From Paracandidimonas soli (GTDB taxonomy: Bacteria; Pseudomonadota; Gammaproteobacteria; Burkholderiales; Burkholderiaceae_B): 64,000 nucleotides of DNA. The stretch covers positions 124,001 through 188,000 of the forward strand of contig NZ_SMBX01000005.1 in NCBI RefSeq assembly GCF_004342005.1, given 5' to 3'. Both the position numbers and the translations under genes were made by a program. Under the pieces are notes generated by a model. The model was given only the letters and a program-made list of their open reading frames with translations, was not told where the DNA came from and made no database searches. Shown piece after piece: positions 5,951 to 41,407 of the stretch. The stretch's first letter is position 1; the number at the start of each line of letters is the position of its first letter.

Positions 5951-5970
5951 CCGGCAGTATTCCGTAGTAG

Positions 5971-6011
5971 AAAACAGGAAGGGGAAGCCATCGGCTTCCC
6001 CTTCCTGTTTT
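5971..6011. terminator. Bidirectional intrinsic terminator
   Basis: Perfect 19-base-pair inverted repeat with a 3-base loop (arms 5971-5989 and 5993-6011) beginning AAAA and ending TTTT, located between the convergent stop codons at 5950 and 6077. Symmetrical A and T ends fit termination in both directions. Confidence 0.93.
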
Positions 6012-6076
6012 CCCGCCGGCTTCCGGGCTCGATGGCGCGGGAGCCGGCATATCGCCGCCGATGGCGGGAAATGGGA

Positions 6077-9647: not shown

Positions 9648-9992
9648 ATGATGCAAAAGACCTTGCCCGTACTGCTGCTCGTGCTGTCGAACGTTTTCAT
9701 GACGTTCGCCTGGTATGGCCACCTGAAGTTTCCGGGCGCTCCCCTGGTCAAGGTGATCCTGTTGAGCTGGGGCATCGCGCTCGTCGAATATTGCCTGGCG
9801 GTGCCCGCGAACCGCATGGGCCACGCCGTCTACAGCGCGGCGGAGCTCAAGACGATCCAGGAGGTCGTCACACTGGCGGTGTTCGCCGGCTTCTCGGTCC
9901 TGTACCTGAAGGAAGGCCTGAGCATCAATCACTTGCTGGGCTTTGCGCTCATTGCGCTGGGCGCCTTCGTCATCTTCCGTTCGCCGTTCTGA
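9648..9992 (+). CDS. DMT-type small membrane protein, DUF486 family
   Basis: 114 residues with four hydrophobic segments (about residues 6-22, 30-50, 66-85, 92-110), including FAWYGHLKF, PANRMGHAVYSAAELKTIQEVVTL and LYLKEGLSINHLLGFALI, the conserved blocks of DUF486. The family resembles half of a drug/metabolite transporter and has no assigned function. Start ATG 9648 (a second ATG follows directly). It stands alone; a sigma-54 promoter and a candidate small RNA lie just downstream. Confidence 0.88.
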   Translation: MMQKTLPVLLLVLSNVFMTFAWYGHLKFPGAPLVKVILLSWGIALVEYCLAVPANRMGHAVYSAAELKTIQEVVTLAVFAGFSVLYLKEGLSINHLLGFALIALGAFVIFRSPF

Positions 9993-10029
9993 CCACGCGC
10001 CCGGCGCTGGTGCGCTTTGCACACTCATT

Positions 10030-10046
10030 CGCATGTTATTGGTGCA
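10030..10046 (+). promoter_or_regulatory. NtrC-like upstream activator site
   Basis: CGCATGTTATTGGTGCA matches the NtrC palindrome TGCACCA-N3-TGGTGCA at 10 of 14 defined positions, with a perfect right half TGGTGCA. It lies about 42 bases upstream of the sigma-54 promoter at 10088. A further GCAC/GTGC half-site pair is found at about 10009-10022. Activator identity is inferred. Confidence 0.45.
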
Positions 10047-10087
10047 CGACCATTCGATGGCATGCCTTGTTCGCCCTTGCGCTGCCG

Positions 10088-10103
10088 TGGCACGTAAATT
10101 GCA
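10088..10103 (+). promoter_or_regulatory. Sigma-54 (RpoN) promoter
   Basis: TGGCACG at 10088-10094, four bases, then TTGCA at 10099-10103: a full match to the -24/-12 core TGGCACG-N4-TTGC. The predicted start is about 10113-10115. It points to the candidate structured RNA at 10113-10256, not to any recognised protein gene. Confidence 0.8.
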
Positions 10104-10112
10104 TGCATGCAT

Positions 10113-10256
10113 TCACTGCGGGACTTGTCGTGCGCATGTCCGATGATCGCCGCCGGGAGGGACATCCCCGGAAATCCGGGGGTGTCCGGCTGGCAGCGAT
10201 ATGACGCAGTGTCGTTTTTGCATCCCTCCGGCGCGAAGCCGGCGGGATGCTTTTTT
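10113..10256 (+). ncRNA. Candidate sigma-54-dependent small regulatory RNA
   Basis: The predicted transcript runs about 144 nt from the sigma-54 start to a U-tract terminator. Its folding agrees with those ends: a closing stem CACTGCG (10114-10120) with CGCAGTG (10205-10211) begins right at the predicted start; inside it ATCGC (10146-10150) can pair with GCGAT (10196-10200), and a 12-base-pair hairpin with AAAT loop spans 10160-10187 with one G-U pair. A separate terminator hairpin follows. A 22-codon open frame (10136-10204) lies within it but has a poor ribosome site. No known RNA family is recognised. Both function and expression are predictions. Confidence 0.6.
10220..10256 (+). terminator. 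Intrinsic terminator of the candidate small RNA
   Basis: 13-base stem (10220-10232 with 10238-10250, one mismatch), loop GCGAA, then TTTTTT at 10251-10256. The T-run is on the right side only, so it serves rightward transcription, not the leftward gene ending at 10281. Confidence 0.9.
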
Positions 10257-10280
10257 ACTTAGAGCCGCCCCAGGCGGAAA

Positions 10281-11504
10281 TCAGAATGCGATGGGGGCGT
10301 TGGCCAGGCGGAAGCGTCCCGGATGCAGGACGCGGCAAAGCGCTTCCACGAAGTAGAAATCGCCGAACATGGTTGCGCTGACCACGCCTTCGCCGTGAGG
10401 CCTGGAGTAGCAGCCCTCGCGCAGCAGGCCGCGATGGCTGTCTTCATTGGCGAAGCCTTCGCGGCACAGGCCGGCCAGCATGTCGACTCCCAGCGCATGC
10501 CATTCCTGCGCCTTGGACGCATCCGGATGCAGTTGGCCCAGTTCGATCAGGGCGGAGGACACGATCGCGGCGGCGGCGGTGTCCCGGATCTTGGCGTCCT
10601 CGCCGGTGGCGTCGAAGTCATAGGGAGGAATGACCCGGTCGCCCAGCCGCTGCAGATAGTAGCGCGCTGAGCGCTCGGCCAGTTCCAGGTAGGCGGGGTT
10701 GCGCGTTTCCAGGGCCGAGCGCGTGTAGCCGTAGATGGCCCAGGCCTGGCCGCGCGACCAGGCGGTTTCATCGCCCGCGCCCTGGAAGGTATAGCCTCGC
10801 ACGCGCTCGCCGGTGGCGATGTCGTACTGGACCGCGTGGTAGGTGGAGTCATCATTGCGGAAGAAGGCGCGCGCCGTCATGGCGGCATGCGCATCGGCGG
10901 CCAACCGGTAGCTGGCATCATCGGTATAGTGCGAAGCCCAGTACAGCAAGGGCAGGTTGGCCATTGTGTCGATGGCCGAGCTGCAGCGGCCGCGTGGGTC
11001 GCTGATGGGGCCCCATGAAGCGATATAGGCGCCGGCCGGGGTCGTGACCAGGCGTGCGCGCAGACGGTCGGCGGCCTGTTTCGCGATGCCGGCGAACCAG
11101 GCGTCTCCTGTGACCAGGTATCCCGGAATGGCGCTGCTGTCGAAAATGAAACCGATGTCGTGCGTATTGGGATCGTCGGCGCGCTGGGCGACCAGGCGCA
11201 TGCGCTCGCGCGCCCATGTCAGGAACCGGGCGTCGCCGGTTTGCAGGTACGAGGCCAGCAGCAGTCCGACCCAGAAGCCGCACAGCCAGTTGCCGTGGCT
11301 CCAGGCGTCGCCGGTGTAGCCGGCGGAAACACTGGCCGGAACGGTGATCCAGCTGCCGTCCGGCGCGGTCACGTGCGGAAATTCGACGCCGAGCGCAGGC
11401 TCGTCTTCGGCGACCTTTTGCGCGGTTCGATCCAGTGTCTGGCTGAACAGCGCGCGTGTGTCGGCATCCAGGTCGAAAGACCTGGGAGTGGGGGTGTGCG
11501 GCAT
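10281..11504 (-). CDS. GH88-family unsaturated glycuronyl hydrolase
   Basis: 407 residues from ATG 11504, chosen because GGAG lies 6 bases upstream. Family GH88/GH105 alpha6/alpha6 barrel features: GDAWSHGNWLCGFWVGLLLASY, PNTHDIGFIFDSSA with the conserved Asp, CSSAIDTMANLPLLYWAS with the second Asp, ETAWSRGQAWAIYGYT and YDFDATGEDAKIRDTAAAAIVSSAL. These enzymes hydrate the double bond of delta-4,5-unsaturated uronic acid oligosaccharides made by polysaccharide lyases. No signal peptide, so cytoplasmic. Same strand and 64 bases after the IclR gene. No lyase is in the window, so oligomers must be imported. Confidence 0.92.
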   Translation of the reverse strand: MPHTPTPRSFDLDADTRALFSQTLDRTAQKVAEDEPALGVEFPHVTAPDGSWITVPASVSAGYTGDAWSHGNWLCGFWVGLLLASYLQTGDARFLTWARERMRLVAQRADDPNTHDIGFIFDSSAIPGYLVTGDAWFAGIAKQAADRLRARLVTTPAGAYIASWGPISDPRGRCSSAIDTMANLPLLYWASHYTDDASYRLAADAHAAMTARAFFRNDDSTYHAVQYDIATGERVRGYTFQGAGDETAWSRGQAWAIYGYTRSALETRNPAYLELAERSARYYLQRLGDRVIPPYDFDATGEDAKIRDTAAAAIVSSALIELGQLHPDASKAQEWHALGVDMLAGLCREGFANEDSHRGLLREGCYSRPHGEGVVSATMFGDFYFVEALCRVLHPGRFRLANAPIAF

Positions 11505-41390: not shown

Positions 41391-41407
41391 TGGCACGAGA
41401 CTTGCTT
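41391..41407 (+). promoter_or_regulatory. Sigma-54 promoter of the nrtA-nasA operon
   Basis: TGGCACG (41391-41397), four bases, TTGC (41402-41405): a perfect -24/-12 core preceded by C. Predicted start about 41416-41417, directly before the first leader hairpin. Confidence 0.88.

Follow-up and report, generated by a model that had tools for sequence, protein, structure and literature searches.

The window, i.e., the whole 64,000-nucleotide stretch of Paracandidimonas soli DNA analyzed here, includes a 288 bp gap between two convergent genes that contains a whole candidate transcription unit. On the left lies a DUF486 (DMT_6) membrane-protein gene on the forward strand (9648–9992; Pfam E 8e-45). 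On the right lies a reverse-strand gene, with its stop at 10281, whose product bears a weak resemblance to glycoside hydrolase family 88 (GH88; E 1e-4, under the Pfam cut-off); an IclR regulator gene comes after it. Since the complete unit (9998–10256) sits within the gap, it overlaps neither neighbor, and the original prediction was right that no recognized protein gene lies between promoter and terminator. The gap contains, in order, two NtrC-like sites, a −24/−12 box, a start, a structured body, a U-rich linker, and a terminator:

9998–10014, + strand: distal NtrC-like site CGCCCGGCGCTGGTGCG, placed 32 bp from the proximal site and agreeing with 8 of 10 core positions
10030–10046, + strand: proximal NtrC-like site CGCATGTTATTGGTGCA, matching 8 of 10 core positions
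10088–10103, + strand: sigma-54 −24/−12 promoter element TGGCACGTAAATTGCA, perfect consensus
10114, + strand: predicted transcription start (+1), 12 nt past the −12 C at 10102
10114–10211, + strand: RNA body, a predicted three-way junction closed by 10114–10120/10205–10211
10121–10141, + strand: first junction hairpin, with a GGAC/GUCC stem and the loop CGUGC
10146–10200, + strand: long second arm, with stems of 5 bp, 5 bp, and 12 bp (10160–10171/10176–10187) and an AAAU loop
10212–10219, + strand: U-rich linker UCGUUUUU, single-stranded in the fold and its longest unpaired stretch
10220–10256, + strand: intrinsic terminator, a bulged 12-bp stem followed by U6

The candidate RNA stretch is single-copy in the genome, and a repeat or mobile element was rejected on that basis.

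The promoter box matches the sigma-54 signature TGGCACG-N4-TTGCW exactly and with correct spacing, at the very place (10088–10103) where a full −24/−12 element had been predicted. Such exact boxes are rare: approximately none are expected in simulated 64-kb sequence of the same dinucleotide content, compared to two observed in the window. The other one (41391–41406), also accompanied by NtrC-like sites, lies 146 nt ahead of a forward-strand gene (from ~41537) for an NMT1-type (nitrate/taurine-like) ABC transporter substrate-binding protein and is, judging by its sequence, an ordinary nitrogen-regulon promoter. Across the whole genome there are 12 exact boxes, among them the glnA, glnK-amtB, and transporter promoters. 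When one mismatch is allowed, 48 boxes are found against 23 for a reversed control pattern, so about half of these looser matches are noise. The geometry of sigma-54 promoters is well established and provides the basis for the predicted start: with GG/GC placed at −24/−12, +1 falls at 10114, where the closing stem also begins. The original prediction had claimed precisely this agreement between initiation and fold.

Upstream of the box, the predicted NtrC sites are arranged as at bona fide nitrogen promoters of the same genome. The proximal site, whose left half deviates from the palindrome, ends 42 nt ahead of the box as previously proposed; the distal site had been missed and was found here. 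With the first base of the box as reference, the pair lies at −90/−58, i.e., 32 bp or about three helical turns apart. The corresponding pairs lie at −102/−70 for glnA and −101/−69 for glnK-amtB, both likewise spaced by 32 bp. Tandem NtrC-like pairs of such quality occur at a background rate of about 0.1% of window positions. One NtrC encoded in the genome exceeds the curated cut-off (629 bits); its gene lies just downstream of glnA on contig C2, whereas the RNA locus is on contig C5. A further pair, spaced by 31 bp (−88/−57), was observed at locus L132 (G000:C1:577040), where the promoter TGGCATGCGCTTTGCT precedes a gene for a small protein; here the site at −88 has a perfect core (CGCACCATTACGGTGCA) and the site at −57 is weaker.

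A strict composite motif (GGTGC, 28–58 nt, then a perfect −24/−12 box) was present in 100 of the 268 family genomes searched, compared to eight single matches for the reversed control. All 30 of the loci fetched have a protein gene start within about 105 nt. From their translations, about half of these 30 are glnA, and the remainder include glnK-amtB, nitrite-reductase-like genes, and genes for transport or periplasmic proteins; in total, the majority of the 30 are apparent nitrogen genes, glnA included. In the P. soli genome, the sole exact match of the strict motif is the promoter of the RNA. The spacing of the tandem pair, shared with glnA and glnK, and the association of the motif with nitrogen genes across the family give the original promoter reading stronger support than it had; dependence on NtrC we infer from the sites being common to glnA and glnK. 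Transcription of the RNA is quite probably under nitrogen control on these promoter features, and induction upon nitrogen starvation is strongly suggested by them.

The terminator is on the same strand as DUF486 and past its stop codon (9992), and nitrogen-related sRNAs derived from 3′ untranslated regions do exist: GlnZ of the Enterobacteriaceae, which acts in nitrogen/carbon balance, is produced from the 3′ untranslated region of the glutamine synthetase (glnA) mRNA (PMC9731577). The structured stretch could therefore be the DUF486 3′ untranslated region and its terminator, perhaps yielding an sRNA, with the sigma-54 box unused. We consider this very unlikely, as a perfect box with tandem NtrC-like sites would need to be a coincidence, the box is spaced so that +1 coincides exactly with the base at which the RNA fold begins, and the 3′ flanks read next to DUF486 in relatives are unrelated. 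Unlike GlnZ, the candidate RNA has its own promoter and is located away from glnA.

The predicted transcript is unusually stable. The fold of 10113–10256 has an energy of −86.3 kcal/mol, compared to −58.6 ± 3.9 kcal/mol for shuffled sequences (z = −7.06), with a mean pair probability of 0.99, and the energy is nearly constant when the start is shifted between 10109 and 10114. After GC correction, the candidate RNA ranks second for over-stability among 2663 tiles covering both strands of the window. The top-ranked tile is a separate feature, a long near-perfect palindrome (acaggaaggggaagcc/ggcttccccttcctgt, about 5970–6015) between converging genes that is probably an ordinary, bidirectional terminator. 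Within the candidate RNA, the 7-bp closing stem (10114–10120/10205–10211) and the 12-bp hairpin (10160–10171/10176–10187) of the original prediction were recovered. Its intrinsic terminator was likewise recovered, with a stem at 10220–10250 and T6 at 10251–10256. A simple terminator scan of the window did not list this terminator, probably because its stem is bulged, though it is plain in the fold. Overall, 96 of the 143 nt are paired, no free stretch exceeds 8 nt, and the 5′ end is held in a stem.

The transcript is probably non-coding, judging from its short frames. One frame of 22 amino acids (MSDDRRREGHPRKSGGVRLAAI) runs from an ATG at 10136 to 10204, and a 39-aa frame from an ATG at 10143 extends beyond the terminator. 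No evident ribosome-binding site was found ahead of any short frame within the transcript, and the 22-aa frame has no Pfam match. The presence of this ATG frame would allow the transcript to be a small mRNA, with the 22-codon frame or another short one translated. Such a reading is highly improbable given that the 22-aa frame lacks an evident Shine-Dalgarno sequence and any homologue found and is mostly buried in the long arm, the most stable part of the fold, while the 39-aa frame overruns the terminator; a small protein was dropped as an explanation, with neither a family nor an evident ribosome-binding site to its name. That the unit is self-contained, folds stably, and has no credible reading frame upholds the earlier description of a structured small RNA; a regulatory function is an inference. 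By sequence, the locus has the features of an independent sRNA gene, i.e., its own promoter, its own terminator, and no translated frame.

No homologue of the RNA was found in the collections searched. Rfam gave no match at gathering score across 9990–10300, where the best sub-threshold match scored 17.9 bits (cut-off 60). A DNA search of 61 relatives retrieved no homologue; the single match outside the genome was 26 nt long, fell within a dehydrogenase-like gene, and was attributed to chance. A single-sequence covariance model detected no RNA homologue in 268 family, 399 order, and 369 class genomes (these samples overlap), although such a model, combined with stricter filters, has limited sensitivity to distant homologues and absence is thus not proven. 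Among 29 weak family-level matches, those read were coding DNA (chiefly ftsK, but also pssA and a RelA/SpoT-like gene) and were judged to be chance, as was an order-level match that was ftsK again. For the RNA, the plasmids, phages, and viral contigs searched contained nothing above chance. This species is the sole member of its genus in the genomes searched, leaving no congener in which covariation or compensatory changes in the stems could show.

Synteny gave a similar outcome. Fifty-six family genomes contain DUF486, and the 3′ flanks were read at the best 27 loci, i.e., 26 besides that of the window. In the 500 bp downstream of these 26 other DUF486 genes, there was no sigma-54 box with fewer than two mismatches and no comparable RNA. 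A DUF486 genome scan gave 80 loci, ten of which were searched with the covariance model, and these yielded no RNA relative. The flanks differ between genera and the DUF486 relatives occupy varying neighborhoods. The conservation check put forward with the original prediction, a covariance search combined with DUF486 synteny, showed no conservation, as no relative was found to carry the RNA; the DUF486 neighborhood itself is not kept either, which makes the synteny result weak, neither supporting nor refuting the RNA.

Other conserved stretches were observed next to DUF486 in relatives. In loci L181–L189 except L184 and L186 (genus g2, Alcaligenes-like), a well-conserved non-coding stretch (GAAGCCGGATAAATAGGGAGGTGAAAAATGTTATCCGG...CTGACTAGGTTCAAAGCATAGCAGTGAGTAACTATTTGTGGCTC) lies 0–300 nt downstream of DUF486; that of L183 has no Rfam match. 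Loci L174 and L177 (genera g65 and g13) share, 50–250 nt downstream of DUF486, a promoter-like element (TTGACA...TATATTGA), a strong terminator, and a stretch that is conserved between them (GCTGTCAAYGCTGCCAGCTAGGTGCAGGGCAAAAAAG). The shared region has no Rfam match and, on its sequence features, is likely to be an unannotated conserved sRNA.

The RNA gene is apparently lineage-specific, and it would be new in sequence while known in kind, belonging with NtrC/sigma-54-driven sRNAs such as NrsZ. The missing homologues, the lineage-specific intergenic region, and the varying neighborhoods of DUF486 relatives are also what would be seen if the RNA were made under nitrogen limitation but had no function of its own, with the transcript being of recent origin or in decay, or the promoter being left over from a lost gene. 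This is unlikely, because start, fold, and terminator fit one another precisely and the fold is extremely stable; a unit in decay is not expected to retain its terminator together with a perfect promoter and paired activator sites.

Among the closest parallels in kind is NrsZ of Pseudomonas aeruginosa, which a review describes as an intergenic RNA that NtrB/C, with RpoN, switches on when nitrogen is limiting (PMC9308961, citing Wenner et al. 2014). The two RNAs are alike in promoter class and intergenic location. However, NrsZ adjoins ntrC and carries the motif ACAGGCAG, whereas here ntrC lies near glnA on another contig, and the candidate transcript lacks the motif even when one mismatch is allowed. 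NrsZ is also at least 226 nt long and processed, compared to about 143 nt for the candidate unit. With both the motif and the position beside ntrC missing, the candidate RNA is by these marks outside the NrsZ family. Two nitrogen-related ncRNAs of Pseudomonas stutzeri A1501, NfiS and NfiR, serve nitrogenase expression; NfiS is sigma-54-dependent but without an identified NtrC site, while NfiR has a footprinted NtrC site and starts 29 bp past its sigma-54 box (PMC6606865). By the published description, their promoter arrangement differs from that of the candidate RNA. In Burkholderia cenocepacia, the betaproteobacterial sRNA NcS25 is tied to nitrogen metabolism, but has no sigma-54 motif of its own and is unresponsive to nitrogen depletion (PMC10117139); the candidate RNA, in contrast, has a sigma-54 box and NtrC-like sites.

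Taken together, these features are probably best explained by a free-standing, nitrogen-controlled non-coding RNA gene whose product acts in trans with Hfq. During nitrogen limitation, phosphorylated NtrC would bind 9998–10014 and 10030–10046 and activate sigma-54 RNA polymerase at 10088–10103. The resulting transcript, from about 10114 to 10256, would be compact, about 143 nt long, and would act on mRNAs, aided by Hfq, within the nitrogen-starvation response. A role as a trans-acting regulator is suggested with moderate confidence. Dependence on Hfq is suggested only weakly by the features typical of such sRNAs, i.e., an Hfq encoded in the genome (on contig C9), the UCGUUUUU linker, and the U6 tail; the linker and the U-tailed terminator would hold Hfq, and the linker at 10212–10219 is a possible contact.

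The predicted RNA has no obvious free seed region and a locked 5′ end, unlike typical seed-pairing sRNAs. With so many of its bases paired and such short free stretches, it would need to open or be processed in order to pair with mRNAs, or would alternatively bind protein; the locked 5′ end likewise leaves room for processing, refolding, or a protein-binding role. The compact three-way junction, sequestered 5′ end, and scarcity of unpaired bases would suit a variant in which the RNA sequesters a protein, as do CrcZ and the CsrA/RsmA sponges, rather than pairing with mRNAs. This variant is doubtful, since the transcript lacks repeated binding motifs, including the several A-rich CA motifs (AANAANAA) that are the hallmark of Crc/Hfq-sequestering RNAs (CrcZ/CrcY), and most of its five GGA triplets fall within stems, not loops. 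There is a similarly slim chance that the RNA represents a new structural class of NtrC/sigma-54-driven RNA, restricted to its lineage, which works as a compact three-way-junction RNA and, for example, binds a nitrogen-control protein without the usual exposed-seed pairing.

In the literature that we found, RNAs controlled by NtrC and sigma-54 are mainly those of Pseudomonas and enterobacteria. If the preferred reading of a nitrogen-controlled, trans-acting RNA holds, the locus would provide this betaproteobacterial family with a nitrogen-starvation RNA whose promoter is unusually clear and whose fold is compact. It would also indicate that such RNAs can be lineage-specific yet use the same switch as glutamine synthetase.
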